Positions 43,746-59,455 of a stretch of DNA of 64,000 nucleotides are shown here, one piece after another. The DNA lies in assembly GCA_025463605.1 (NCBI GenBank), contig JAODAV010000004.1:1-64000 (forward strand). Direction: 5' to 3'. The stretch comes from Rhodoglobus sp. (GTDB lineage Bacteria; Actinomycetota; Actinomycetes; Actinomycetales; Microbacteriaceae). The notes under the pieces were generated by a model. It was not told the DNA's origin, did not search any database, and saw only the letters and a program-made list of their open reading frames with translations. How positions within the stretch are numbered: position 1 is the stretch's first letter; each line of letters opens with the position of its first letter. Made by a program: the position numbers and the translations under genes.

Positions 43746-43901
43746 AGGGGTGCTCCTTAAGCGCGCCATCGTTTCCGCGACGCGCGCCAATAGTCAGCCG
43801 AGCTGGGTGCCCGGTCGGCGGTGAGTCACGAGTCTACTAACGGATCCGGGCACGAGATTGCAGCGCCCGGAGCCCTTGGTGCTTCGGGACCCCCTGCGGG
43901 A

Positions 43902-44930
43902 TCACCGCGCCGAAATCTCGTGAGCGCGTTCCAGAATTGCGAGGCTCGCAACCGCGTCGCGGGGTGCCACAGGCACGGGTGACCCTTCAAGAATCGCTGC
44001 AGCCATCCTCACGTAGAACTCGGGATACCGACCGCGTTCGGTGGGCACGGACGTGACACCCTCGCTGTCGTCGACACCGAGGGTGCCCCACAGTGCGGGC
44101 GGAGTAACGCCATAGTTCGGGTCGTCGGGCCAGATGCCTTCCTTGAGTCCGGCCTCCTGCCCGTCCAGACCATAGGAGGCGTACGCGTTGTTCTCGCCGA
44201 GAACACGGAATCGTGCTCCCGGTTGACCAGACACCCGCGCGACCGTGATGTGTGACCTGACGCCTGACTCGTGATGGAGAGCGAGGAACGACTCGTCGTC
44301 GCTCGCCCTCCCGTCCCGCACGTATCCGACCTCCGCGTACTCGAGCGTCGCGGGGCCGAACAGGTGAAGCGCCTGGTCGACGAGGTGGCTGCCCACGTCG
44401 AAGGTGACCCCGCCGCCCTCATTGACCGGGGTAGCACCCTGCCACTCGGCCCTCAGCTCGACCGACCAGCGCTCGAAACTCGACTCGAAGCGATGGATGC
44501 GCCCGAAGGCACCCTGCTCTACCAGAGCCTTGACGGTGAGGAAGTCGCCATCCCATCGACGACTCTGGAACACCGACAGGGGCACGCCTTGCCGCTCCGA
44601 GATATCAATGAGCGTCTCCGCTTCCGCAGTCGTCACCACGAACGGCTTGTCGACGACGAGCGCGATGCCGGCCTCGAGCACGGCGCGCGCCTGCTCGAAG
44701 TGGGTCGGCGGCGGTGTCGCGATGATGACGAGATCGAGGTCCCGAGACCGGGCGAGAAGCTCCTCGGTGGTAGCGACGACCTCGTACTTCTGGGCCGCCT
44801 TGGCCTGGCGTTCCGGGTTGCTTGTGACCACGAGATCAAGCGAGTACGCGGGATTCGAAGCGACGAGGGGCTCATGGAACACCTGTCCGGCTAGCCCGTA
44901 GCCGATGATTGCGGTGCGGATCGGTGCCAT
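43902..44930 (-). CDS. Gfo/Idh/MocA-family oxidoreductase
   Basis: A 342-residue NAD(P)-dependent oxidoreductase. The Rossmann loop is IIGYGLAG at 8-15 and the conserved VVDKPF has Asp94-Lys95-Pro96; GSHLVDQALHLFG carries the catalytic-site His and Asp of the C-terminal domain. It probably oxidises or reduces a sugar or inositol ring. The ATG overlaps the SDR stop by one base. It is the last gene of the sugar ABC transport operon. A clear paralogue lies at 58388. Confidence 0.9.
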   Translation of the reverse strand: MAPIRTAIIGYGLAGQVFHEPLVASNPAYSLDLVVTSNPERQAKAAQKYEVVATTEELLARSRDLDLVIIATPPPTHFEQARAVLEAGIALVVDKPFVVTTAEAETLIDISERQGVPLSVFQSRRWDGDFLTVKALVEQGAFGRIHRFESSFERWSVELRAEWQGATPVNEGGGVTFDVGSHLVDQALHLFGPATLEYAEVGYVRDGRASDDESFLALHHESGVRSHITVARVSGQPGARFRVLGENNAYASYGLDGQEAGLKEGIWPDDPNYGVTPPALWGTLGVDDSEGVTSVPTERGRYPEFYVRMAAAILEGSPVPVAPRDAVASLAILERAHEISAR

Positions 44931-45688
44931 CACCAGACTGTGTAGCCGCCGTCGACGAGGAGGTCGTGACCGGTCACGAAAGTGCTTGCATCGGAGGCGA
45001 GGAACACCGCTGCCCCTGCGATCTCGTGAGGCTTCGCGAAACGCGCGAGCGGCGTCTTCGAGAGCCAGGCGTCGACCATCTCCGGCTTGGATCGGCTGAG
45101 CGCGGTCATCGCGGTCTCGGTGTATCCCGGTGACAGCGAGTTCACACGAACCCCGCGGTCGCCCCACTCGCCAGCAAGCGACTTGGTGTATTGCACGACC
45201 GCAGCCTTCGACGCGTTGTACGCGGCCTGCCGCTGTGGACGGTTGACGGCGCTGGCCGACATCGACGCGATGTTCACGATTGAGCCGGAGCCCTGTTCCA
45301 GCATGACGCGCCCTTCCGCCCGGCAGGATCGGAAGACGCCGCGGATGTTCGTGGCGAACACCGCATCCCACTCGTCATCCGTCGTGTCTTCAGCCGGCTT
45401 GTTGAGTCGCGCTCCCGCGCCGTTGATCGCAATGTCGAGGCGACCGTTCTCCTTGACGATCTGGGCGATTGCGCTGTCGATCGACGCGGTCTCCGTTACA
45501 TCGAGGGGAATGTAGGTGACCCCCAGCTCAGCGGCGGCCTGGCGGCCTACATCCTCGGTGCGCCCGGCGATGTACACAGTGGCGCCGTACTTGGTGAGCG
45601 CCTCCGCCACCGCGTAGCCGATACCTGTCGCGCCCCCGGTGACGAGAGCGGTCTTTCCTCCAACGGTGTAGTCGAGAGGCGATGTCAT
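44930..45688 (-). CDS. SDR-family oxidoreductase
   Basis: A 252-residue classical short-chain dehydrogenase. TGGATGIGYAVA is the cofactor loop, NGAGA the central strand, and Ser142, Tyr157 and Lys161 (YNASK) the catalytic set. The C-terminus ends FVTGHDLLVDGGY as in gluconate 5-dehydrogenase and related polyol enzymes. The loss of an acidic residue after strand 2 (AGRTED) suggests NADP use. It sits between the transporter permease and the Gfo/Idh gene in one operon. Confidence 0.9.
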   Translation of the reverse strand: MTSPLDYTVGGKTALVTGGATGIGYAVAEALTKYGATVYIAGRTEDVGRQAAAELGVTYIPLDVTETASIDSAIAQIVKENGRLDIAINGAGARLNKPAEDTTDDEWDAVFATNIRGVFRSCRAEGRVMLEQGSGSIVNIASMSASAVNRPQRQAAYNASKAAVVQYTKSLAGEWGDRGVRVNSLSPGYTETAMTALSRSKPEMVDAWLSKTPLARFAKPHEIAGAAVFLASDASTFVTGHDLLVDGGYTVW

Positions 45689-45749
45689 GCAGTTCTCCTA
45701 TTTTGTATCTGTGGATCTGTGATGTCGGGGCTGCCGCGCGAGTGCGCAA

Positions 45750-46625
45750 CTACCCCTTGGTTGCGCCGGCCGTGAGTCCTGAGACCACGTACTTCTGGAA
45801 GAAGACGGCCATGACGATGATGGGGACCGTGATCGCTGTGCTTGCCGCCATGAGGCCTCCCCAGTCGATGCTCGCGTAGCCGATGAAGTTCATGATCGCG
45901 ACGGGCAGCGTCTTGGTCTGCGATCCAGAAAGGATGAGCGAAAACAGGAAGTTGTTCCACGAGAAGATGAACGCCAGAATCGCCGCCGTCGCAATCCCCG
46001 GCGCCGAGAGCGGAAGGCTGATCCGGAAGAACGCACCGATCGGGGTGAGGCCGTCGACTTGGGCCGCTTCTTCGAGATCGACCGGCAGCCCGTCGAAGAA
46101 CGAGATCAGGATCCAGACGATAAGCGGCACCGAGGTGAACATGTGCGCGAGGATCATCGCGCCATAGCCGCCGACCAGGCCGAGGTTGGCGAAGATGAAA
46201 TACCACGGAACAATGAGGCTGATCGCGGGGATGATGCGCGCCAGGAGCACGGTACTGGCCGATCGCCGCATTGTGAACCTGGACATGGCGTACGCCGCCG
46301 GGAGGCCGAGCGCGAGCGCGAGCCCCGTTGACCCCGCGCCGACCACGAAACTGTTCCAGAAGAACGGCAAAAAGCTCTGCTCGCCGAATACCGTCACATA
46401 GTTGTCGAACGTGGGGACGAAAGAGAAGGTCTTCGCTGCGTTGTAAATGTCGATGTTCGACTTCAGGGAAGCCAGGATCATCCACACGATAGGAAACGCG
46501 AGTCCGACGACCACGACGACGAGAGCTACGACCCGGAAGATCGTGTACGCACGGGAATCGCCCGCCCTGCTCCGCCTGCGCTTCCTGGCGACAGGATTCG
46601 CTCGTGTGACAGTTGCAGCGGTCAT
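45750..46625 (-). CDS. carbohydrate ABC transporter permease (MalG-like)
   Basis: A 291-residue CUT1-type inner-membrane permease with six helices. The coupling loop is DLEEAAQVDGLTPIGAFFRISLPLSAPG, close to the MalG EAA motif, and the ending GLTAGATKG is the usual permease terminus. Its start overlaps the previous permease by one base. No ATPase gene is present in the operon, so it must share an MsmK-like ATPase from elsewhere, as is common in actinobacteria. Confidence 0.92.
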   Translation of the reverse strand: MTAATVTRANPVARKRRRSRAGDSRAYTIFRVVALVVVVVGLAFPIVWMILASLKSNIDIYNAAKTFSFVPTFDNYVTVFGEQSFLPFFWNSFVVGAGSTGLALALGLPAAYAMSRFTMRRSASTVLLARIIPAISLIVPWYFIFANLGLVGGYGAMILAHMFTSVPLIVWILISFFDGLPVDLEEAAQVDGLTPIGAFFRISLPLSAPGIATAAILAFIFSWNNFLFSLILSGSQTKTLPVAIMNFIGYASIDWGGLMAASTAITVPIIVMAVFFQKYVVSGLTAGATKG

Positions 46626-47545
46626 CAGTAGTCCTTCTTCCTTCTCAGCAACTGGATCGCCACGAGGATAAGGACCATGGCGAAGAACACGACGAGTACG
46701 GCTGACGCGAGGCCATACCTGCTGTACAGGAAGTTTTCGCCATACGCGTAGATGTTCACCGTCTCGACTTCGTGGAGCGAGCCGCCGCCCGTTCCCTTGG
46801 TGGCGTAGAGAATGTCGAAAGTCTTGAACGCGTCAATCGAGCGCAGCACGACCGCCGCGATCAGGGCGGGCATCAGCAAGGGCAGGGTGACGTATCGGAA
46901 ACGCTGGAACGCTGAGGCTCCGTCGACTCGGGCAGCCTCATCGGGCTCGTCGGGCAACGAGGTGAGGCCCGCCAGCAGAATCAATACCATCATGGGTGTC
47001 CACTGCCAGATGTCGACGAACATAAGGGTAGGCAGCGCCTGGTTGGGGTCGGAGATCCAGCCGTTGTCCGGTAGTCCGAACCAGTTCAGGAGCTGGTTCG
47101 CGAAACCGATACTCGGCTCGAAGATGAGCCTCCACATCATGCCAACGGCGATCGGGGTAGCCACGAGCGGCAGCAGGATGATCCCGCGCACGATCCGTTC
47201 CCCTCGAAACGGCCGCCGCAACAACAGCGCGATTCCCATGCCGAGCGCGAGCTCGACAGCCACGACACCGACCGTGAATGTGACGGTGCGTCCGACGGCC
47301 GGCCAGAAACGCGTCGTGTCGGTGAGAACGGCAACGTAGTTCTCGAAGCCGATGAAGTTGATCTCCGCGCGAAGGGAGTTCGCGGCATCCGTGAAGCTCA
47401 AGTAGATCGTGTAGCTCAGCGGGATGATGATCAGGGCCGCTACGAAGATCACCGCGGGCCCGGCGAAGATCCACTTTCTGTGGCGATTTGCCCAGATCGA
47501 CAGAGACGAGCCGAACTGGCTGCCTCGCAGATTGGTTTGCGTCAT
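46625..47545 (-). CDS. carbohydrate ABC transporter permease (MalF-like)
   Basis: A 306-residue CUT1-type permease. The first helix is WIFAGPAVIFVAALIIIPLSYTIYLSF and the EAA loop is PDEPDEAARVDGASAFQRFRYVTLPLLMP. It pairs with the downstream MalG-like subunit, with a one-base overlap. The binding-protein gene lies 138 nt upstream beyond a strong stem-loop. Confidence 0.92.
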   Translation of the reverse strand: MTQTNLRGSQFGSSLSIWANRHRKWIFAGPAVIFVAALIIIPLSYTIYLSFTDAANSLRAEINFIGFENYVAVLTDTTRFWPAVGRTVTFTVGVVAVELALGMGIALLLRRPFRGERIVRGIILLPLVATPIAVGMMWRLIFEPSIGFANQLLNWFGLPDNGWISDPNQALPTLMFVDIWQWTPMMVLILLAGLTSLPDEPDEAARVDGASAFQRFRYVTLPLLMPALIAAVVLRSIDAFKTFDILYATKGTGGGSLHEVETVNIYAYGENFLYSRYGLASAVLVVFFAMVLILVAIQLLRRKKDY

Positions 47546-47629
47546 TACTGCACCTCACACATGACAAGAACGGTCGGCACACGGCAGTCGCCCAGACTGA
47601 CTGCTCGGCGGGATCCGGCACCGAAGAAT

Positions 47630-47670
47630 GCTCCGTTGTGCCGACCAGGAAGCGACCGGCACAACGGAGC
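47630..47670 (-). terminator. 14-bp stem-loop after sugar-binding protein gene
   Basis: GCTCCGTTGTGCCG at 47630-47643 pairs perfectly with CGGCACAACGGAGC at 47657-47670 across a 13-nt loop. On the minus strand it follows the binding-protein stop by 13 bases and is followed by ATTCTTC. It resembles intra-operon attenuation or mRNA stabilisation signals seen after other binding-protein genes. Confidence 0.7.
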
Positions 47671-47683
47671 GTTGACGAACGTC

Positions 47684-48976
47684 CTACTTCTCCTTGTCCA
47701 GCAGATCCTGGAAGGCGGCGTTCGCGGTCTTCGCAGCGTCCGCCACGTCACCACCCTGGATGGCCGTCACCAGCGGAGTGCCCACAGCCTCGCGCGCCGC
47801 AGCTACCGCGATGAGCACCGGGCGGTCATAGCCGACCCCGATGTCACCGTTCGTCTGGATGACCTTGAGGAGGTCGGCCGGAAGCGCACTCGTGCCCGCC
47901 GGGTCCGCCCACACCGACGTGCGAGGGCCGGGAACGTCCGCCTGCTGGAACTTGAGCACGTTGTCTTTGCTCGTGGCCCACTGAATGAACTTCCAGGCGT
48001 TGTCCTGATTCTTCGACCCGGAGTTGATCCCGATGGCGAAGTTGGTGATGTTGTACGGTCGCGATCCGTCCGATCCAGACGGAATCGGCGCGACACCGAT
48101 CTGGTCGGCGATGTTCGACTTCGAGGGATCGACTGCGTTGTTGTACTGCGAGCTACCCTCCGGGTAGAACGCGACGAGACCCTGCTGCATGAGGCCCATG
48201 ACCTGCGGCCAGTTCATGTCGACGGAGCCGGGAGGGCCATAGTCCTTGATGAGGCCGCCCAGGTACTCGTATGCCTTGATCGCCTCCGGGCTGTCGACGG
48301 CCGCCTTGCCGTTCTTGTCAACCCAGTCTCCCCCGAAGCTGTAGAGGAAACTCGAGAACTGCGTCACAGCAGCTGACTTCTCGCCGCGAGCACCGAACGC
48401 GTAGATGTCCGGGTTGAGCTCGTGGATCTTCTTCACCGCTGCGGTGAGTTCATCCATCGTCTTCGGGACGTCCAGACCGGCGGCCGCGAGAAGATCCTTG
48501 CGGTAGTAGAGCACGGCGGTCTCGGTCGCGATCGGTACGCCGACGACCTCGTCGCCCACGGTCACCGACGACCGCGCGGACTCCTGGAAGTCCTGCCAGT
48601 CCCACCCGGCGTCCTTGGTGACATCGTCGCTGAGGTCGACAAGCCACTTGTTCGTAGACATCTGCAGCGTGTCCTGCAGCGGCTTGAACATCATGACGTC
48701 AAGCTCGTCGCTCGCGGCGTTGAGCTTGACATTGTAGAGCTGCGCGAGCTGCTCGTCGTCGTAGATGTTCAGGTCAACCTTGATCCCGGTCTCCTTCTCG
48801 AAGTCCGGGAGAGCCTTCTTGACGGCGTCACTCCACGGGTGATTCGCAAGGGTCACGTTGAGCGTCCCGGATGAACCCGTTCCAGCGTCCGCGCCTCCGG
48901 CGCATCCCGCAAGCGCCACAACGGCGGAAGCAGCAACGGCAAGGGAGGTAGCCCGCAGAATCGTCGATTTCTTCAC
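47684..48976 (-). CDS. extracellular sugar-binding lipoprotein (family 1)
   Basis: A 430-residue family 1 solute-binding protein. The signal peptide ends in the lipobox LAGC with Cys25. GTLNVTLANHPWSDAVKKALPDFEKETG and YNVKLNAASDELDVMMF are typical. It has an acidic Asp-Glu body and a C-terminal helix. It captures a mono- or oligosaccharide or polyol; ligand unknown. It leads the operon with two permeases, SDR and Gfo/Idh genes. A strong promoter covered by a long palindrome lies 79-125 bp upstream. Confidence 0.93.
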   Translation of the reverse strand: MKKSTILRATSLAVAASAVVALAGCAGGADAGTGSSGTLNVTLANHPWSDAVKKALPDFEKETGIKVDLNIYDDEQLAQLYNVKLNAASDELDVMMFKPLQDTLQMSTNKWLVDLSDDVTKDAGWDWQDFQESARSSVTVGDEVVGVPIATETAVLYYRKDLLAAAGLDVPKTMDELTAAVKKIHELNPDIYAFGARGEKSAAVTQFSSFLYSFGGDWVDKNGKAAVDSPEAIKAYEYLGGLIKDYGPPGSVDMNWPQVMGLMQQGLVAFYPEGSSQYNNAVDPSKSNIADQIGVAPIPSGSDGSRPYNITNFAIGINSGSKNQDNAWKFIQWATSKDNVLKFQQADVPGPRTSVWADPAGTSALPADLLKVIQTNGDIGVGYDRPVLIAVAAAREAVGTPLVTAIQGGDVADAAKTANAAFQDLLDKEK

Positions 48977-49054
48977 TTATTTCCTTCTTCCCTGAGAGTG
49001 GGCGCGAAGTTGCAGGTTCACGCTCGATGCCTCGTTACATCTTCTCAATGATGA

Positions 49055-49084
49055 ATAATATGCGTTTAGATCATACTTAGTCAA
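49055..49084 (-). promoter_or_regulatory. promoter of the sugar ABC operon
   Basis: On the minus strand TTGACT (49079-49084) and TATTAT (49055-49060) are 18 bp apart, a good housekeeping-type promoter in an AT-rich patch. The leader would be about 70 nt. Confidence 0.65.
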
Positions 49085-49101
49085 ACTCTGTCTATGATCT
49101 A
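49067..49101. promoter_or_regulatory. 9+9-bp inverted repeat over the -35 box
   Basis: TAGATCATA at 49067-49075 and TATGATCTA at 49093-49101 are perfect inverted repeats separated by 17 bp and enclose the -35 hexamer. A dimeric regulator bound here would block or control the operon promoter. The core AGATCAT is also present once at 55257-55263, in front of the AGE isomerase gene. Confidence 0.6.
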
Positions 49102-49209
49102 TAGTCGCTTTTCATCAGATTGCTCGCCAAGACGACGATCAAGGCAATCGAGCGCGCGCGAGGGTATTTCAGTCATCCATCCGGCCGCACGCGGCATGGC
49201 AGGGCAGAG

Positions 49210-49935
49210 TCAGGTGCGGGCGGACACTCGCGGAAATGTCGAAGCAACCGCCGCGGCCGGAACGCTCTCGAGGTCCTCGATGGTGGCTGCCATGTGACGC
49301 GCGCTCGCCTCTCGGGCCCCCTCGACATCCCCGGCGCTGATGCGCTCGAAGATGGCGATGTGCTCTTCGAGGGCAGAAGAGGGCGGACGACGGCTTCCGG
49401 TCGTCAGTTCGCGGCTTCGCGCGAGCAGTCCCGCCGCCGGCCGCATCATGCTCACGAGTACGTCATTGCCGGTTGCCACAAGCAGGGCCTCGTGGAAGGC
49501 GACATCTGCATCGACATACCCGGATGGTTCATCGAGGTGCTCGCGCATTCTGGCGATCGCGTTGCCCAGCGCTTCGATGTCTCCAGCCGTCGCCCGTGCT
49601 GCGGCAAGCGCCGCCGCCGAATTCTCGATGATCCACCGCACTTCCATGAGTTGCTTCAGCGAGTTCTCGTCTTTGCGCATAGCGAGACCGAGCGTTTCGC
49701 CGAATGCTCGCTCATACTGCAGCTGTATCGTGGGGCGCCGACCGGGCACCAGAACCAGGAGTCCTTGCATTTCGAGCGCCGTGAGCGCCTCGCGCACAAC
49801 CGTGCGACTCACTCCCAGCGTTGCGGACAGCTCCCGCTCTGGCGGCAGGGTGTCCCCCGGGCCGAGCGAATCGCCCTCGATGATGGCGAGCACTGCGGAA
49901 ATGACCTCGTCCCGCAGTTTGTTCCGCGCGATCAC
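49210..49935 (-). CDS. FadR/FCD-type GntR regulator
   Basis: A 241-residue regulator. The N-terminal winged helix has LGPGDTLPPERELSATLGVSRTVVREALTALEMQGLL; the FCD ligand domain has the metal-type pattern MEVRWIIENSAAALAAARAT ... DVAFHEALLVATGN ... EEHIAIFERISAGD, with a Asp/His set. The GTG at 49935 has a GAGGAGGAG ribosome site. A TGGTATAAC palindrome lies 67 bp upstream and another just before the kinase gene, and are probably its sites. Confidence 0.88.
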   Translation of the reverse strand: MIARNKLRDEVISAVLAIIEGDSLGPGDTLPPERELSATLGVSRTVVREALTALEMQGLLVLVPGRRPTIQLQYERAFGETLGLAMRKDENSLKQLMEVRWIIENSAAALAAARATAGDIEALGNAIARMREHLDEPSGYVDADVAFHEALLVATGNDVLVSMMRPAAGLLARSRELTTGSRRPPSSALEEHIAIFERISAGDVEGAREASARHMAATIEDLESVPAAAVASTFPRVSART

Positions 49936-50001
49936 GTGGCTCCTCCTCGCAGCGTCGTCCGTTCTCGCTGTCGAGCCTACTGCGGTGGCCAACGACCCAG
50001 C

Positions 50002-50020
50002 TGGTATAACAGTCCTACCA
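50002..50020. promoter_or_regulatory. GntR operator copy 1
   Basis: TGGTATAACAGTCCTACCA has TGGTA and TACCA arms and lies between the divergent GntR and isomerase genes. It differs from the copy at 51024 at only two of 19 positions. The TGGT/ACCA arms are typical of FadR-type sites, and TATAAC inside could serve as a -10 box. Confidence 0.65.
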
Positions 50021-50077
50021 AGACGACCCCGCGAGCCAGGACTCGACCCCTGCCGCAATCGCTCGAATCGAGAACAA

Positions 50078-51031
50078 GTGGCACTCACCCGAAATCGTGT
50101 CGGTCTCAATCCCCTTCAGTGGGTCACCGCAGGCGAAATCAGCGTGCGATCACCGGACGGGAGCGCGCGATTCGCGGACCCGTGGTTCATTCCCACCTTC
50201 CGACGGATTCTGGGATTGGTGGCCGAGTCTGGCTTCGGGGCCATGATGCTGAAAGTTCCGCCGACGCAAACGCTGCAGGCCTACAAGTCGATGGTCGACG
50301 ATGCGGGGCTCGACCTTGCACCCGGATACGTTCAGGTCACCCTCCCCGAGGACGAACACCGCTCCTTCACTCGTGGCAGTCAGGAGTGGTTCCGCTGGTT
50401 CGACGATGTTCGCCGGCGTGCCGAGGAGTCGAACTTCTGCGGCTTGGATTCGGTCTTCATCGCGTCGGACATCAGGCGGTCGGGACGCGTTCGGGTCGAC
50501 GAAGCAGTAGCCGTCGGGGCCGCCTTCGACCAGGGTCGGCTGGAACGAGTCACCGAACTGCTCGCCGACGCCGTTGAGGTGCTTGCCCGGGAAGGGCTTC
50601 GCGCCGGCCTGCACAATCACGTCGGAACGTGGATCGAGACCAAGCGGGAGATCGAGTATGTGCTCGACAACGTGGACTCCCTGTGGGCGGGATTCGACAT
50701 CGGTCATCTCAGTTGGGCGGGAATGGACCCGGTCGAGATGGTGCGGAAATACTCCGACCGTCTGCTCGATCTGCACATCAAGGATCTCGACGCGCGGATC
50801 GCCACTGCAAGTCGCGCCGTGCCGACCTCGTACAGAGAAGCATCGGTGCAGCGGTTCTTCCTCGAGCCCGGCTCTGGAGACATAGACCTGGCTGGCGTTC
50901 TTGCCGAGTTGCCCTCGAACTTCCCGGGCTGGGTCGTCGTCGAAGTCGATCGCGCATCCATCGAGCCGACGGCGAGCGCGAAGCAGAGCTGGCGATGGAT
51001 CGAGGACCACGTGCCAGCGCGCGTGGTATAA
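50078..51031 (+). CDS. sugar phosphate isomerase/epimerase-type TIM barrel
   Basis: A 317-residue xylose-isomerase-like barrel. Divalent metal ligands are expected from VVEVDR-like and HNHVGTW (His), FDIGHLSW (Asp, His) and LHIKDLD (His). The family includes ketose 3-epimerases, inosose dehydratase and 2-keto-sugar isomerases; the exact reaction is not clear. The GTG at 50078 is the likely start but has only a weak ribosome site. The gene is divergent from GntR, and its TAA stop falls within the kinase operator. Confidence 0.8.
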   Translation: MALTRNRVGLNPLQWVTAGEISVRSPDGSARFADPWFIPTFRRILGLVAESGFGAMMLKVPPTQTLQAYKSMVDDAGLDLAPGYVQVTLPEDEHRSFTRGSQEWFRWFDDVRRRAEESNFCGLDSVFIASDIRRSGRVRVDEAVAVGAAFDQGRLERVTELLADAVEVLAREGLRAGLHNHVGTWIETKREIEYVLDNVDSLWAGFDIGHLSWAGMDPVEMVRKYSDRLLDLHIKDLDARIATASRAVPTSYREASVQRFFLEPGSGDIDLAGVLAELPSNFPGWVVVEVDRASIEPTASAKQSWRWIEDHVPARVV

Positions 51032-51042
51032 CATTCATACCA
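51024..51042. promoter_or_regulatory. GntR operator copy 2
   Basis: TGGTATAACATTCATACCA is an imperfect 19-bp palindrome with TGGTAT/ATACCA arms, 35 bp before the kinase start. Its TATAAC would act as -10 box. It shares 17 of 19 bases with the site at 50002. Confidence 0.7.
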
Positions 51043-51076
51043 CCCGCATCGAGCGGAGAGAAAGGGCGAGGGGCGC

Positions 51077-52594
51077 GTGAACTCCGAGTCGAAGTCCTAC
51101 GTCATAGGTCTCGACCTCGGCACCTCGTCATGCAAGGCCGCCGTTTTCGACCTCAGCGGCCGCCCACACGCCGTCAGCCGGGTCGCGTACGCGACCGCGA
51201 CGGAGCGGGGCGGCGTGACGCAACGGGCGGATGAGTGGGCAGAGGCCGCCATCGCTGCCCTGTGCGCTATCGCGCCTGCGGTCGGTGATGGCGACTTGCT
51301 CGGCATCGGGCTGAGTGGGCAGATCGGCACTCACGTGCTCCTGGACTCGGCCGGCGGCCCACTCCACGATGCCGTCACCTGGCAGGACGGCCGCTCGGCC
51401 GGAGTTGTGCAGGAGGTCGAGGATGCGATCGATCGCGATTGGCTCAGCACCCAACTCGACACGCGCCTGCCCGCGGGGGCTGCATGGCCACTGGTGCGCA
51501 TGTTGTGGCTCAGCCGGCTCGATCCGCAGCTGTTCCGGCGTGCACGTTGGATAGCCCAGCCCAAGGACTTCCTTCTGCGTCGACTGACGGGCGAGATCGC
51601 GAGCGATCCGTCGAGCTGGCGGGGAATCGCACGCCCCGACGGAAGTATCGTCACTGAAGCGCTCGAGAAGCTCGGCATTGCCAACCTTGTGCCGCCACTG
51701 TTCCGCGAGACCGCAACCGTCGGCGGCCTCCTCCCGGCCATCGCCGCTCGAACAGGACTGCCAACGGGACTTTCCGTCTACATCGGCATGAACGACCTGA
51801 ACTGCAGTCTGCTTGGCATCGGGGCCGTCGAACCGGGTCGGGCATTCGATGTCGCCGGAACGTCTGAGCATCTGGGATACGTCTCGACGCTCGCGAGCGC
51901 CTCAACCTCGGTCAACAGCGTTCCGCTTCATGGAACCGACACGTCGCTGTACTCGGTCTATGGAGTGAGCTCGAACGGTGGGTCGATCGCCCAGTGGGCC
52001 GCTGCGGCGCTTTCCGGCACTCCCGGCTCCGAGTTGGGCGAAGACGCCCTCGCGAGTCTGGTGTCTGCCAGCGCTCCCGGCTCGGACGGCCTGCTCTTCC
52101 TGCCATACCTGCGCGGAGAACGAGCACCCGTTTGGGATGCGGCGGCTACGGGGGCCCTTGTCGGCCTCACCCAGACTCACGGTGCTCCTGAGATCGCTCG
52201 AGCGGCACTGGAGGGCGTCGCGTTCAACCTTCGCCAGATCAAGGAACTCCTGCCCGAATCATCGCCAAGCGAGATCCGCGCAACGGGAGGACCAACACGA
52301 ATGAGCGCCTGGAACCAGATCAAGGCAGACGTGCTGCAGCGACCCATCCGCCTCCTCGCAGAGGCCGACTCAGCGGCGCTTGGCGCAGCAATGGTCGCGG
52401 CCATCGGATGCGGAGCCTTCCCGTCATCGGCCGCCGCGTCCGCAGCGATGGTCCGCACGGTCGGGATCATCGATCCCGACGTGCGAACGGCCGAGCTCTA
52501 CGACGATGCCTACACACGATTCCGCGAGGTGTATCCAGCGCTGTCAGGGCTACGAAACCCCGCTCTAACCCCAAAGAAAGGACACCATGTCTAG
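51077..52594 (+). CDS. FGGY-family carbohydrate kinase
   Basis: A 505-residue sugar or polyol kinase. The first phosphate loop is GLDLGTSSCKAAVFD, the substrate loop has TWQDGR with Asp104, and GMNDLNCSLLGIGAVEPGRAFDVAGTSE holds the catalytic Asp and the adenosine-binding GTSE. Family members phosphorylate xylulose, gluconate, glycerol or free polyols at the terminal carbon. The GTG start follows GAGGGG. Its stop overlaps the start of the dehydrogenase gene by 8 nt, so both are one unit. A FadR-type operator lies upstream. Confidence 0.9.
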   Translation: MNSESKSYVIGLDLGTSSCKAAVFDLSGRPHAVSRVAYATATERGGVTQRADEWAEAAIAALCAIAPAVGDGDLLGIGLSGQIGTHVLLDSAGGPLHDAVTWQDGRSAGVVQEVEDAIDRDWLSTQLDTRLPAGAAWPLVRMLWLSRLDPQLFRRARWIAQPKDFLLRRLTGEIASDPSSWRGIARPDGSIVTEALEKLGIANLVPPLFRETATVGGLLPAIAARTGLPTGLSVYIGMNDLNCSLLGIGAVEPGRAFDVAGTSEHLGYVSTLASASTSVNSVPLHGTDTSLYSVYGVSSNGGSIAQWAAAALSGTPGSELGEDALASLVSASAPGSDGLLFLPYLRGERAPVWDAAATGALVGLTQTHGAPEIARAALEGVAFNLRQIKELLPESSPSEIRATGGPTRMSAWNQIKADVLQRPIRLLAEADSAALGAAMVAAIGCGAFPSSAAASAAMVRTVGIIDPDVRTAELYDDAYTRFREVYPALSGLRNPALTPKKGHHV

Positions 52595-53774
52595 CAAGTC
52601 AGCCGTCGTCTTCGGCGCAGGGAAGATTGCCCGCGGCTTTATCGGCCACATTCTCAATCTCTCGGGATTCTCGATCACTTTTGTGGATGTCAGCCCGGAG
52701 CTGGTCGCGCTTGTCAACGAGCGCAAGCAGTACACGGTTCACATTCTCGGTGCACCCGAGAAGGACACCGTAGTGACCAACGTGTCAGCGCTTGTGTCCG
52801 GCGACCCCGCGATCACGTCAGCAGTCGCACAAGCGGATGTCGTATTCGTGAGCGTCGGGGGTGCGAACCTCGGGCACGTCGCTGCCCCTCTCGCCGCCGC
52901 GCTTGCCGAGCGACTCACCAACCGACTCGGTCCCCTCAATGTGGTCGTGTGCGAGAACTGGCGCGCCGCCGGAGAGACGCTCAAGGCCGCAGTGCTGGAG
53001 AACCTCCCACAAGAGCTTCACGAGCGTTTCGCCACAGAGGTCGGCATCGCCGAATCGACGATCATGCGGTCAGCGATCGCGGCGACCCCGGCCCAGGTGG
53101 CAGCAGACCCGCTCGCAGTGCAGTCGCAGAACTTCTGGCTCCTGCCCATCGACGGCGACGCACTCGTCCCCGGATTTCCGGAGATCGAAACCGTCGACCC
53201 GGTGCACAACTTCGCCAACGCGCTCGAGCGCAAGCTCTACACCTACAACACGGGCAATGCCACGATCTCATTCCTCGGCTGGCTGCGCGGCCACTCCTAT
53301 CTGAGCGAGGCCGCGAACGATCCGGTGATCGAAGAGATCGCCAAGGGCACGTATGAGGAGATGGGCCGAGCCATGGTCGCCAAGTTCGGTTTCGATCCCG
53401 AGGACCAGCGCCAGTATGCAGAACGTTCACTCGTGAAATTTCAGGATCCTGAGATCGTCGACCCCCTAACCCGGCAGATCAACGACCCCTTGCGCAAGCT
53501 CGGCCGCCATGACCGTCTCGTGGGGGCGGCACTCGTTGCCCTTGAGCACGGCGTGCGTCCCGATTCCGTCGCCATCGGCATTGCGGCTGGCTTGCGTCAC
53601 AGAAACCCGAACGACCCGTCGGCAGTGAAGCTTGCCGAGCTCATCGAGCAGTTCGGCGAAGGCGATGCTCTCGCCCAGGTCGCAGGGATCGAGAAGGATC
53701 ACGAACTCATCGCGCTGGTTCTTTCGAAACTGCCGGAGGTCGACGCGATCACGACGGGCACAGCTGCTCCCTAG
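52587..53774 (+). CDS. mannitol-1-phosphate dehydrogenase-like oxidoreductase
   Basis: A 395-residue member of the polyol-specific long-chain dehydrogenase family. The Rossmann loop is AVVFGAGKIARGF; CENWRAAGETLK replaces the usual CEN motif; the active-site lysine is Lys216 and Asn221 is retained, but the segment reads NTGNATISF where MtlD-like enzymes have NTGHA, so the expected His is Asn224. Activity may still be present with another base. AAAGGA precedes the ATG. It is coupled to the FGGY kinase: kinase plus polyol-phosphate dehydrogenase suggests a phosphorylate-first route from a polyol to a ketose phosphate. Confidence 0.88.
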   Translation: MSSKSAVVFGAGKIARGFIGHILNLSGFSITFVDVSPELVALVNERKQYTVHILGAPEKDTVVTNVSALVSGDPAITSAVAQADVVFVSVGGANLGHVAAPLAAALAERLTNRLGPLNVVVCENWRAAGETLKAAVLENLPQELHERFATEVGIAESTIMRSAIAATPAQVAADPLAVQSQNFWLLPIDGDALVPGFPEIETVDPVHNFANALERKLYTYNTGNATISFLGWLRGHSYLSEAANDPVIEEIAKGTYEEMGRAMVAKFGFDPEDQRQYAERSLVKFQDPEIVDPLTRQINDPLRKLGRHDRLVGAALVALEHGVRPDSVAIGIAAGLRHRNPNDPSAVKLAELIEQFGEGDALAQVAGIEKDHELIALVLSKLPEVDAITTGTAAP

Positions 53775-53802
53775 TTGCTCCTCTCTCCCTATAAGCCGAA
53801 GA

Positions 53803-53836
53803 GGCCCCGTTCGCCAAGCGAACGGGGCCCCTTTAT
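53803..53836 (+). terminator. Rho-independent terminator after dehydrogenase gene
   Basis: GGCCCCGTTCGC at 53803-53814 pairs perfectly with GCGAACGGGGCC at 53818-53829 around a 3-nt loop, followed by CCTTTAT. It ends the isomerase-kinase-dehydrogenase operon and lies just past the AGE gene stop on the other strand. Confidence 0.85.
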
Positions 53837-53845
53837 CGTTGCGGT

Positions 53846-55090
53846 TTAGGCCTGCGCTTCGTCCAGCAAGCCCGCAGCTAACGCTGGCGCGAGCGCGAGC
53901 CGGAGGGGAAGGCGTGGGATGACGAGCGCATGCATGAGGTGGTAGAGATCTGGCTTGCCGTCCCACACCTCGCTCGACGGCATGTTGTTGACATCGAGTT
54001 CCTGCCACCAGGAGCCGCCCTCCATGTCCATGAGGTGCTCACGGCACCAGTCCCAGAACGTCTGGTACCACTTCTCGTACTGCGGGTCCCCCGTGGCCGC
54101 GAACAGCGCGTACGCTCCGCCGATCGCCTCGACGATGACCCAGCGGATGCGCTCGCGCACCACCGGTGCGCCCGTCCAGTCCACGGAGTAGACGAAGCCT
54201 GTTCCGCCGTCCACACTCCAGGCGTCGCGCACGGTGGCTGCGAAGAGCCCCTTCGCGTCCTCGAGCAGCCAGTCCGGCGCATCCTCACCTCGTGCTTCGA
54301 GACCGGCGCGGATATGCAGGAGCAATCGCGCCCACTCGGCCCAGTGCCCCGGGGTGGACCCGTACGCACGGAAACGGTGCACCGGGGTGTCGATGTTGTA
54401 ATCCGGCAGCGGATTCCAGTCCTCGTCGAAGTGTTCGTACACACGGTAAGAATTGTTCTTCGCAAAGTGATGGATCATGCGCTCGGCAATCTGCTTCGCC
54501 CGGTCGAACCAGATCCGATCACCCGTCACGTCGGCGGCGGCGAGATACGCCTCGACGGCGTGCATGTTGACATTGCCGCCGCGGTAGCTCTCGGTCTGCG
54601 TGAATGCGCGATCCCACGACTCAAGAGCCATTCCCTGCTCGTCGCTCCAGAAGTACTTGCTCGTGAGGGCGAGCGCCTCGTCGAGCAGTTCGCGAGCACC
54701 CGGTCGACCGGCCGCAGTGGCGCTGGCCGCGCCGAGGATCACGAAGAAGTGCGGGTACCCTGACTTGGTGTCGTCGGCGGCACCCGACGCGTCGATGCTC
54801 GTGAACCATCCACCGTTCTGCTCGTCGCGAAACGGGCCGGTCATCGCTGCCAGTCCGTGATCGACAAGAGCGGCTGCGCCCGGACGGCCCATCAATGTGG
54901 CCAAAGAGTAAACATGGGTCATGCGCGCGGTCACCCAGAGGAAGGTGGGGCGGTCAGCACGCACTACGCCCGAGTTGTCAAGCCAACCGAACCCTCCGGA
55001 CTCGATAGCGGCGGCGCGACCGAACTCGAAAAGTCGATCGGTTTCGGACTCGAGCCACCGAGCGTGGGCGGCGGTGTTCAGCCAAGGCAT
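53846..55090 (-). CDS. AGE-family aldose-ketose isomerase (YihS-like)
   Basis: A 414-residue (alpha/alpha)6-barrel protein of the N-acylglucosamine 2-epimerase/YihS superfamily. Residues expected for the YihS active site are found with the same spacing: Arg56, Tyr112, His177 (NVNMHAVE), His249 and Glu252 ([13 protein letters not shown]) and His384 ([11 protein letters not shown]). Such enzymes interconvert mannose, fructose, glucose or sulfoquinovose and its ketose. No sulfonate or GH31 gene is near, so mannose or a related hexose is the simpler guess. GAAGGAG precedes the ATG at 55090. It is convergent with the kinase operon and shares a regulatory spacer with the second GntR gene. Confidence 0.88.
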
Positions 55091-55428
55091 TGGCTTCTCC
55101 TTCAATTGTTAGTTACTGACGAAGTAGTAGTGGCCGAGGCACCTGCCCGGACCGGGGGCAACCCCGGCTGCGATCTCACAGTTCTCGCCCCCAACTGGTT
55201 TAAAGCATATCTTCTGCCGCGTTCTTGCCGCTACGACATACTAATAGTTACGAATCAGATCATTATTCGATCGCGCGTCTCTTGTAAACGAACGCCGGTG
55301 TGCGTTGCTCGCTGGCAAGTGACAAGTGCCGCTCCGCGCTGGCTGCCTCAGTCAAGCCCCGGATAAGCCGTATAAGTACGCCTCAAAGGTTCTATTAGTG
55401 CCTTTAGGTATTCTGATATAGTCCTCGG
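55091..55428. promoter_or_regulatory. 338-nt divergent regulatory spacer
   Basis: The spacer separates the AGE isomerase and the second GntR gene. It is more AT-rich than its surroundings between about 55195 and 55290. CGAAT-N9-ATTCG forms an inverted repeat at 55251-55269, and AGATCAT at 55257 matches the core of the palindrome at the sugar operon promoter. Nothing coding is seen. Confidence 0.55.
55417..55422 (+). promoter_or_regulatory. -10 box next to second GntR gene
   Basis: TATAGT with an upstream TGA gives an extended -10 (TGATATAGT) that ends six bases before the GntR ATG, so transcription probably starts at or beside the start codon. No ribosome site lies between. Confidence 0.45.
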
Positions 55429-56217
55429 ATGAACGAGTCAGGGGCAAACCCGAGTCAACCTGGGGTCGCGACGCGCTCCCGGGGGCTGCATGGACAACTC
55501 CTCCAGCAGCTGGGCGTCGCGATCTGCGGGCAGGAAGTGCCCCCGGGCAGCATCATCACGATCGAAGAGATCGAAGAACGCTACGGGGTCTCCCGCTCGG
55601 TCGTGCGTGAGGCGGTGCGGGTACTCGAATCCATGGGTCTCGTCGCGTCACGGCGTCGGGTGGGCATCGTCGCCCTCTCCCCCAGCGAGTGGAATCTCTA
55701 CGACCCGCAGATCATCCGGTGGAGGTTGGCCTCGCCAGCGCGAATCGCGCAACTTCGTTCACTGACCGAACTCCGTCTCGCCGTCGAGCCGGAGGCTGCC
55801 CGTCTGGCCGCCATCCGCGCGCCACTCATCAACGCGGGCGATCTCATGGGGATCGCAGGAAAGCTCTGGGTCGCGGGCGAGGGCGACAACAACGAGGAGT
55901 TCCTGAGACTCGACATCATGTTCCATCGACTGGTGCTCTCCAGTTCAGGCAACGAGATGTTTGAACGGCTCAATTCGGTCGTCGCCGAGATGCTGGCTGG
56001 TCAACGACAGTACGGTCTCGCTCCGGCACACACCGATGTCGAGGCTCTGCAACTGCACGTGGATGTCGCCAGTGCCATCCAACGCGGCGTGCCCGCAGAC
56101 GCCCACTCAGCAATGCTTGCCGTCATGCAACGCACGATGCATGAGGTGAACTCGATCGCCGAGCCCGGGGATGAGCACGAAGCCCCTCCTGAGACGACCG
56201 CCGACACTGATCAGTAG
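55429..56217 (+). CDS. FadR/FCD-type GntR regulator
   Basis: A 262-residue regulator. The winged helix has ITIEEIEERYGVSRSVVREAVRVLESMGLVASRRRVG; WNLYDPQIIRWRLASP is the hinge of the DgoR/gluconate branch of the FCD family; the ligand domain has LTELRLAVEPEAARLAA and LDIMFHRLVLSSSGNEMF with the expected Asp and His. The ligand is likely a sugar acid or sugar. It is next to, and divergent from, the AGE isomerase gene and ends 20 nt from the convergent aminotransferase. It differs from the other GntR protein, so two inputs probably act on this locus. Confidence 0.88.
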   Translation: MNESGANPSQPGVATRSRGLHGQLLQQLGVAICGQEVPPGSIITIEEIEERYGVSRSVVREAVRVLESMGLVASRRRVGIVALSPSEWNLYDPQIIRWRLASPARIAQLRSLTELRLAVEPEAARLAAIRAPLINAGDLMGIAGKLWVAGEGDNNEEFLRLDIMFHRLVLSSSGNEMFERLNSVVAEMLAGQRQYGLAPAHTDVEALQLHVDVASAIQRGVPADAHSAMLAVMQRTMHEVNSIAEPGDEHEAPPETTADTDQ

Positions 56218-56237
56218 GCGGCGCTGTTGCGCTGCGT

Positions 56238-58387: not shown

Positions 58388-59455
58388 CTAGGCGGCGCTG
58401 CTCTGGGCGGCCGCGGACAGCGCGTGCGCGCGCTCGAGGATGCGCACGACCTCGATCGCCTCGCGCGGGTCGACGGGAGACGGTGCACCGTCGAGGATGC
58501 TCGCCGCGACGCCCGCGTAGAACGCCGGGTAGTTCCCGATCTCGGTCGGCACGGGAACGAGCCCCGGCTCGACACCGTCGATGCCGAGAAGACCCCACTC
58601 GGACTCGGGGGTGACTCCGTAGCCATCCGAACCGGGCCAGCGCCGCTGCTTGAGCGCGGGCTCCTGGCCGTCGAGACCGTAGACCGTGTACGCGGCCCGG
58701 GAGCCGAGCGCGCGCAAGCGCGGGCCGCTCTGCGCGGCGGCCCGGCTCATCGTGAGGTGCGACCGCACGCCGCTCGCGTGGAGCAGGGAAATGAAGGCAT
58801 CGTCGTCGCTCACGCCGCCGGGTCGCACGACCTGCAGCTCGGCCTGCTCCACGGTCGCAGGACCGAACAGGTGGAGCGCCTGGTCGACGAGGTGGCTGCC
58901 GAGGTCGTAGGTGATTCCCGCGCCCTGGTCGGCCGTCGTCGTGTCCTGCCAGCGATCGCGAGTGGGTCCGCCCCAGCGTTCGAACGTCGACTCGAAGCGA
59001 TGCACGGAACCGAGCGCGCCCTCGGCGATGAGGCGCTTGAGAGTAAGGAAGTCGCCGTCCCAGCGGCGGTTCTGGAACACCGCGAGCGTCTTTCCGACCT
59101 CCTCCGCCTTCGCGCTGAGCTTCTTGGCGTCGACGACGGTCGGCACGAACGGCTTGTCGATCACGAGGTGGGCGCCGGCCTCGAGGGCCGCGAGCCCCTG
59201 CTCGAGGTGGGTGTGCGCGGGAGACGCGAGCACCACCAGGTCAAGGTCGCCGGCACGCGCGAGGAGTACCTCCGGCGAGGCGACGATCTCCGCGCCGGGG
59301 TGTTGCGCTTTCGCGTCGGCTGCCCGCTCGGGGCTGCTCGTGGAGATGACCTCGAGGCTGAAGGCTGGGTTGGTGGCGAGGAACGGGGCGTGGAATACGC
59401 GGCCGGAAAGTCCGAAGCCGATGATCCCCGCGCGGATAGTCGGCGTGGTGGGCAT
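58388..59455 (-). CDS. Gfo/Idh/MocA-family oxidoreductase, paralogue
   Basis: A 355-residue NAD(P)-dependent oxidoreductase with IIGFGLSGRVF, VIDKPF and GSHLVDQALHLFG. It shares long identical stretches with the protein encoded at 43902 (for example RRWDGDFLT and SHLVDQALHLFGPAT), so they are paralogues. Unlike the other copy it stands outside the sugar cluster, between lysR and a cysteine desulfurase gene. The substrate is unknown. The 3' end lies next to the repeats downstream of lysR. Confidence 0.9.
   Translation of the reverse strand: MPTTPTIRAGIIGFGLSGRVFHAPFLATNPAFSLEVISTSSPERAADAKAQHPGAEIVASPEVLLARAGDLDLVVLASPAHTHLEQGLAALEAGAHLVIDKPFVPTVVDAKKLSAKAEEVGKTLAVFQNRRWDGDFLTLKRLIAEGALGSVHRFESTFERWGGPTRDRWQDTTTADQGAGITYDLGSHLVDQALHLFGPATVEQAELQVVRPGGVSDDDAFISLLHASGVRSHLTMSRAAAQSGPRLRALGSRAAYTVYGLDGQEPALKQRRWPGSDGYGVTPESEWGLLGIDGVEPGLVPVPTEIGNYPAFYAGVAASILDGAPSPVDPREAIEVVRILERAHALSAAAQSSAA

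Follow-up and report, generated by a model that had tools for sequence, protein, structure and literature searches.

A Rhodoglobus genomic island with an atypical FGGY kinase-dehydrogenase pair and a possible role in polyol catabolism

This study concerns a block of eleven genes in a 64,000-nt stretch of a Rhodoglobus sp. genome (positions 1 to 64,000 of contig JAODAV010000004.1, hereafter the window). The block is a single insertion next to glyS, probably acquired horizontally, and we place the probability at about 0.5 that it is a catabolic island for a polyol plus a related aldose or ketose, working by a phosphate route that would be supplied by a kinase and free of the phosphotransferase system (PTS). 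Loci of this kind, with a CUT1 importer, a short-chain dehydrogenase/reductase (SDR) and a mannitol-type dehydrogenase, are already known; the unusual part is a pair of genes encoding an FGGY kinase and a dehydrogenase, here called MtlD-N, that resembles mannitol-1-phosphate dehydrogenase (M1PDH). An initial annotation had proposed a sugar/polyol catabolic locus, a reading well supported by gene content, by the retention of 10/11 genes in a second genome (G675) and by the single insertion; its interpretation overall is partly supported. The insertion and the central pair are as follows.

43840..56235, no strand: whole insertion, about 12.4 kb, limits approximate and set by eye from the printed junctions
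51077..52594, plus strand: FGGY kinase (PF00370, PF02782); two substrate-site motifs read QIGT and GMND
52587..53774, plus strand: MtlD-N, mannitol-1-phosphate-dehydrogenase-like, with Asn224 (PF01232, 114 bits; PF08125, 74.9 bits)

The best NCBIfam match of MtlD-N was M1PDH at 274.5 bits (below the cut-off of 356), compared with 37.7 bits for D-arabinitol dehydrogenase, and its only two solved relatives at E up to 0.001 are both M1PDHs. Residues were compared in an alignment of 37 rows comprising the window, 29 other best-scoring family loci, G675, two sequences from the Clostridial locus L042 and one each from L043-L046. MtlD-N is 32-36% identical to the 28 ordinary family MtlD proteins aligned. 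It retains the catalytic residues N124, K216 and N221 (Asn119, Lys200 and Asn205 of the Staphylococcus aureus enzyme, SaM1PDH) as well as the phosphate-site residues R303 and R310 (SaM1PDH Arg287 and Arg294). The SaM1PDH report describes Arg287 and Arg294 as indispensable for substrate recognition, with activity significantly lower in R287S and R294F and moderately lower in R283S, and states that the three phosphate-site arginines are not conserved in mannitol 2-dehydrogenases (PMC6623548). Because the phosphate arginines are conserved, phosphate-level chemistry is favored. The suggestion in the initial annotation that a polyol is phosphorylated before it is oxidized thus gains support for the mannitol-type dehydrogenase step, where the retained R303 and R310 would serve a phosphorylated substrate.

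The substrate-site histidine (His208 of SaM1PDH, His303 of PfM2DH) is replaced by Asn224 in the window. Asparagine occupies this position in four rows of the alignment (window, G675, G029 and the first Clostridial copy) and serine in one (the second Clostridial copy), and the histidine is kept in 32/32 ordinary MtlD rows. The first dehydrogenase of a further Clostridial locus, L075, also has asparagine there. In a FastTree phylogeny of 39 sequences the atypical enzymes, including the Ser copies, formed one group with support of 1.000, the order within the group being weak (0.474, 0.821). Ordinary MtlD-type matches are common, with 194/299 family genomes matched at 1e-40. The Rhodoglobus genome itself carries a second MtlD on another contig (L109:6264-7562) that is ordinary and has the histidine, so the island enzyme is not the sole candidate for acting on mannitol 1-phosphate. 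Next to this second gene lies an ABC transporter with an SBP_bac_11-domain binding protein, and no PTS domain was found among the seven neighboring open reading frames (ORFs) scanned.

The kinase partner also departs from its closest model. That model was XylB, at 261 bits against a cut-off of 380. Motifs were compared with 29 other FGGY loci, drawn from 30 loci retrieved out of a longer list of matches, the remaining one being the window's. All four FGGY kinases that accompany MtlD-N (window, G675, L042 and L075) share GLSxQ[IV]GT and GxND at the two substrate-site motifs, while Q[IV]GT was found in 0/28 and ND in 0/28 of the readable other FGGY rows; in L098 the first motif is HIGT, with a gap in the alignment. 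The window's GMND sits where other FGGY kinases have a conserved aspartate. According to PMC3245297, the signature of XylB-I, GntK and AraB-III kinases opens with Met followed by His, and that of glycerol kinase with Arg-Glu. The Met-His signature of XylB-I is missing from the window kinase, where QIGT stands instead; the placement of the signature in our alignment is inferred, and the window is read as Ile-Gly because the NQRET rows put the signature right after Gln. The four MtlD-N-associated kinases form one branch with support of 0.891 in a tree from which one short background row was omitted.

At the sequence level, then, each of the two automatic labels, mannitol-1-phosphate dehydrogenase and xylulokinase, fails a tested feature. 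Asn224 and QIGT favor a substrate different from mannitol 1-phosphate and from xylulose. Fructose 6-phosphate, which the initial annotation had offered alongside a similar ketose phosphate as the product, is no more than a candidate, as neither the kinase nor the dehydrogenase has the substrate-site residues of the xylulose and mannitol enzymes.

MtlD-N was found in five loci, and in 5/5 a sugar kinase lies beside it (FGGY in the window, G675, L042 and L075; PfkB in G029), as does an alcohol-type dehydrogenase (an SDR in three and a zinc-dependent alcohol dehydrogenase, Zn-ADH, in the two Clostridial loci). The QxGT/GxND kinase features and the Asn dehydrogenase recur together in both Clostridial loci. 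L042, from a metagenome-assembled genome, encodes consecutively an ROK protein, Zn-ADH, the FGGY kinase, MtlD-N and a second MtlD-like gene. L075, in genome G1209, has a binding protein and two permeases, a gene on the opposite strand, and then Zn-ADH, the FGGY kinase, MtlD-N and a second MtlD-like gene. Within the family of L042 the enzyme is present in 2/150 genomes, namely L042's own and G1209. The G029 locus comprises a binding protein, an ATPase, two permeases, an Iso_dh-family enzyme and an SDR 66% identical to that of the window, together with MtlD-N at 41-42%, the PfkB kinase and a relative of the FadR2 regulator. As a control, the window kinase was searched against the surroundings of those ordinary MtlD genes that had wider flanking sequence, and no FGGY kinase lay near any of them (8/8; L032-L035 and L043-L046, some flanks being short). 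A scan of part of the ORFs in the MtlD-N loci found no PTS gene.

Several further genes were noted in the Clostridial loci. The second MtlD-like protein follows MtlD-N in both (L042:11172-12263 and L075:8157-9233), with Ser at the key position in L042. A metallo-hydrolase gene, UlaG-like by eye, lies beside the kinase-dehydrogenase pair at L042:5544-6428 and in part of L075:11909-13678; a 314-aa gene called at L042:5523-6467 was rejected as an antisense ORF, the real gene being on the other strand. A GDPD-family gene lies downstream of the pair in L075.

A second copy of the island was recovered from G675, a genome of another family in the same order. Genome searches were made in samples of each taxon, so further copies may exist. 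The dehydrogenase query matched two of 396 order genomes at E up to 1e-70, its own and G675 (58%), and no genome beyond its own among 396 phylum genomes at 1e-75; the kinase query matched no genome beyond its own in the family at 1e-90 (1/299), and in G675's own family G675 alone matched (1/47). A contig scan by short peptide patterns, which can miss relatives, first returned no relative and, with a two-sequence alignment, returned five loci, the best at 43%. Around the G675 dehydrogenase gene lie 10/11 of the window genes at 48-75% identity (fadR2 72%, mtlD 58%, fggy 48%, fadR1 58%, sbp 60%, permA 67%, permB 75%, sdr 75%, gfo 49% and age 67%). The core order, with fadR1-sbp-permA-permB-sdr-gfo divergent from fggy-mtlD, is intact. 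Of the ten further ORFs scanned in L039 and L040 of G675, eight carry transposase or integrase domains of several families, one is a deoxyribose-phosphate aldolase and one had no match; the aldolase, a DeoC/LacD-domain protein, was identified by NCBIfam (223 bits, cut-off 117). The transposase and integrase genes lie on both sides of the block and between fadR2 and mtlD. Because they flank and interrupt the G675 copy, a mobile cassette fits the block.

The boundaries of the island were examined by comparison with the genus. It is flanked by glyS on one side and an aminotransferase gene on the other, names that we assigned from their sequences. A glyS search matched 11/11 genus genomes including its own, and the surroundings were fetched for seven of the ten others. 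In 7/7 of these relatives glyS adjoins the aminotransferase gene directly, and no island genes were found between the two; one relative (L064) has weak permease matches (26-29% identity) farther along, which are part of a different transporter. The glyS leader is conserved to about position 43,838 and diverges beyond it. The limits of the block named in the initial annotation coincide with those of the insertion, which could not be seen from the window itself, and the gene-order comparison with related genomes that it had recommended yielded both the uninterrupted glyS-aminotransferase pair and the ten genes in G675. GC content is 63.3% in the island versus 67.5% in the remainder of the window, and third-position GC is 0.74-0.84 in the eleven island genes versus 0.83-0.91 in four neighbor genes, ranges that touch. 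We regard the island as a single insertion, probably acquired horizontally, because it is absent from 7/7 relatives and deviates in GC. Plasmid carriage was considered and set aside; the 15 plasmid records matched were all at 30-35% identity.

From these data a pathway can be proposed. The solute would enter through the CUT1 importer, driven by a shared MsiK-type ATPase presumably encoded elsewhere. The SDR would oxidize the free polyol to a ketose, and the AGE-family isomerase would convert the matching aldose to the same ketose. The FGGY kinase would phosphorylate that ketose, the polyol itself, or both, and MtlD-N would interconvert the polyol-phosphate and ketose-phosphate with NAD(H), the latter entering glycolysis or the pentose phosphate pathway. 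The two regulators, FadR1 and FadR2, would act as repressors of the transcription units, relieved by binding of the substrate or an intermediate, and the Gfo/Idh oxidoreductase and the TIM barrel may be side-branch enzymes, perhaps for stereoisomers.

M1PDH-type chemistry is usually tied to the PTS. More tentatively than the catabolic role of the island, we suggest that the QxGT/GxND kinase and MtlD-N constitute a possible undescribed module, a PTS-independent, ATP-driven polyol-phosphate route present in two phyla (the window's Actinomycetota, and Clostridia), moving horizontally and acting on a substrate without a known catabolic pathway. No paper describing the kinase-MtlD-N pair was found among open-licence PMC papers. 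If the pair works at the phosphate level, bacteria that import by ABC transporters could still employ M1PDH-type enzymes, and the shared residue signatures would offer a simple means of finding the module and of questioning automatic "mannitol-1-phosphate dehydrogenase" and "xylulokinase" labels.

Several observations weigh against the proposed phosphate route or against the island as a unit. The FGGY partner is not universal, since G029 carries PfkB, and that locus also has a different importer with its own ATPase. At the position of SaM1PDH Arg283 the window has Asn299 and G675 has Ala, although Arg is present in G029 and both Clostridial copies. Were the polyol phosphorylated first, the SDR would be partly redundant. 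The kinase, MtlD-N, AGE isomerase, TIM barrel, binding protein and permeases all fall below curated NCBIfam cut-offs, and the SDR passes only a broad "glucose 1-dehydrogenase" subfamily model (215.3 against 215). In G675, age and fadR2 occupy other relative positions, and the TIM barrel was not found either in a search of the region or in a genome search at E 1e-5, with a query that does find relatives in other order genomes. Finally, the island may have been lost from the seven relatives rather than gained.

Among the alternatives, the strongest is an ordinary polyol locus. Here the SDR and MtlD-N would both turn free polyols into ketoses and phosphorylation of the ketose by the FGGY kinase would follow, D-arabitol for instance passing through D-xylulose to D-xylulose 5-phosphate. 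We consider this unlikely but a serious competitor. The model for it is the smo (sorbitol-mannitol oxidation) locus of Sinorhizobium meliloti, whose importer we take to be of the CUT1 class. As described in PMC10433430, that locus has an ABC importer, the SDR SmoS (acting on sorbitol and galactitol), MtlK (mannitol and D-arabitol) and a nearby putative carbohydrate kinase, and the island has the same gene classes in one region. The statement in the initial annotation that the combination matches no standard pathway was therefore too strong. The kinase's best model, XylB, also agrees with the smo-like scheme. However, the window kinase lacks the XylB-I signature, and MtlD-N is of the M1PDH type, keeping two of the three phosphate-site arginines which, according to PMC6623548, are not conserved in mannitol 2-dehydrogenases. 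Judged by PMC10433430, the island also differs from smo in having no ATPase among its eleven genes (SmoK in smo), an M1PDH-like enzyme in place of MtlK, which acts on free mannitol and D-arabitol, and GntR/FadR regulators instead of the DeoR-type SmoC; the AGE isomerase, Gfo/Idh oxidoreductase and TIM barrel are additions. A pathway for mannitol and sorbitol in Haloarcula hispanica likewise combines a CUT1 importer with two dehydrogenases feeding one ketose, but its ketohexokinase acts after oxidation to fructose (PMC11519228). Relative to the reference enzymes, the preferred phosphate-level reading involves an M1PDH-like enzyme with both domains, the catalytic Asn/Lys/Asn and two phosphate-site arginines, differing from SaM1PDH by Asn for His208, Asn for Arg283 and the kinase alongside, and a kinase with both FGGY domains, differing from XylB and other FGGY kinases by QIGT (Met-His signature) and GMND (conserved Asp).

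A more doubtful alternative is epimerization by redox steps, in the manner of L-sorbose catabolism: the kinase would form a ketose 1-phosphate, MtlD-N would then yield a hexitol phosphate by reduction, and oxidation of this product at another carbon by the SDR would give fructose 6-phosphate. Such a scheme is supported by the 5/5 MtlD-N loci, each of which pairs a kinase with two dehydrogenases from separate classes (Zn-ADH replacing the SDR in both Clostridial ones), but the nearest solved relatives of the SDR act, by name, on free polyols. That unrelated sugar genes were united by chance in one insertion is very improbable; the TIM barrel, AGE and fadR2 genes do vary from one copy to the other, in presence or in location, but 10/11 genes, 48-75% identical, have remained linked in two families. 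Gln379 of YihS, presumably a sulfonate contact, is Pro in both island copies. Sulfoquinovose catabolism, with the AGE enzyme as sulfoquinovose isomerase, is the least probable of all, given this substitution, a best solute-binding match to a sorbitol binder and the lack of a YihV-type (PfkB) kinase or YihT-type aldolase among the island genes by Pfam, even though the AGE enzyme matches the sulfoquinovose isomerase 7ag4 (607 bits) and the binding protein also matches the sulfoquinovosyl-glycerol-binding SmoF (85 bits). Both Arthrobacter sulfo-EMP clusters carry the two missing enzymes (PMC8873060).

All eleven genes of the island are present and open, and clear Pfam domains were found in ten; fadR2, the remaining gene, is supported by GntR-type NCBIfam matches that fall below cut-offs and by the 72% identical G675 counterpart. 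The gene list of the initial annotation (importer, SDR, Gfo/Idh, TIM barrel, FGGY kinase, polyol-phosphate dehydrogenase-like enzyme, AGE isomerase and two GntR regulators) was confirmed by Pfam, NCBIfam and the G675 counterparts. The remaining features are listed below.

43902..44930, minus strand: Gfo/Idh/MocA oxidoreductase (PF01408, PF22725); nearest solved chains 3fhl ("putative oxidoreductase") and YvaA
44930..45688, minus strand: SDR polyol dehydrogenase, putative (PF13561); nearest solved 3awd ("putative polyol dehydrogenase"), 2wdz (galactitol dehydrogenase) and 4npc (sorbitol dehydrogenase)
45750..46625, minus strand: CUT1 permease, MalG type (PF00528); MalG/GlcU-like, below cut-offs
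46625..47545, minus strand: CUT1 permease, MalF/UgpA type (PF00528); GlcT/UgpA-like, below cut-offs
47684..48976, minus strand: solute-binding protein (PF01547); best solved match 4rya, named sorbitol-binding, E 3.3e-33
49055..49101, minus strand: promoter-like site of the importer operon from a consensus scan, candidate FadR1 operator; perfect 9-bp inverted repeat 49067-49075 / 49093-49101
49210..49935, minus strand: FadR1, FadR-type GntR regulator (PF07729, PF00392); G675 counterpart 58% identical
50078..51031, plus strand: IolE-like TIM barrel, accessory (PF01261); myo-inosose dehydratase model 102 bits, cut-off 290
53803..53829, plus strand: possible terminator, a hairpin with a 12-bp stem separating the dehydrogenase gene from the AGE gene
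53846..55105, minus strand: AGE-family isomerase, YihS / D-mannose isomerase-like (PF07221); 616 bits to YihS 2rgk, D-mannose isomerase model 515 against a cut-off of 600
55429..56217, plus strand: FadR2, FadR-type GntR regulator; NanR-like 60.9 bits, below cut-off

As described in the initial annotation, the kinase and dehydrogenase genes overlap by exactly 8 nt, and the SDR and Gfo/Idh genes and the two permease genes each overlap by 1 nt. Its three transcription units should be at least four by the strand changes, with AGE (minus) and fadR2 (plus) divergent. The consensus scan found five promoter-like sites in the block versus 1.5 in shuffles, and TTGACTAAGT also occurs upstream of sbp in G675. 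Terminator-like sites numbered three, fewer than in shuffles (mean 6.8), a class of match that is not significant, and the hairpin at 53803..53829 is only suggestive as a terminator.

The nearest solved structures of both the binding protein and the SDR bear polyol names. The importer was correctly described as lacking its own ATPase, none being present among the eleven genes. The genome has four OB_MalK matches, three above cut-off. In the 9.8 kb around one MalK/MsiK-type ATPase, at the end of contig C39, there was no match to the window permeases or binding protein, and because of this the C39 gene may be the shared MsiK-type ATPase. Two ATPases on contigs C59 and C39 (L076 and L078) have the same LSGGQ-region sequence, and one lies on a 4.7 kb contig, which suggests either a duplicate or mixed strains in the assembly.

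The AGE enzyme matches YihS over nearly its full length and retains the motifs TARM, NMHA and GHW, with NGRM in place of TARM in G675. YihS is a sulfoquinovose isomerase (PMC9594981); the island enzyme differs from it in having Pro at Gln379, and its D-mannose isomerase score is below that model's cut-off.

An inositol pathway, which the IolE-like TIM barrel and the Gfo/Idh oxidoreductase had brought to mind, was rejected, as the barrel scored under the IolE cut-off and the G675 searches did not recover it. A single-sequence structure model of the TIM barrel was discarded (mean pLDDT of 37). TIM-barrel relatives occur in 4/248 order genomes including its own (G380 54%, G406 53% and G452 40%), with an aldo/keto reductase near those in G380 and G406 and a Gfo/Idh protein near those in G380 and G452. 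A paralogue of the island Gfo/Idh protein is encoded at 58388-59455 of the window, about 2 kb beyond the island, and is found near glyS in 4/7 of the fetched relatives.

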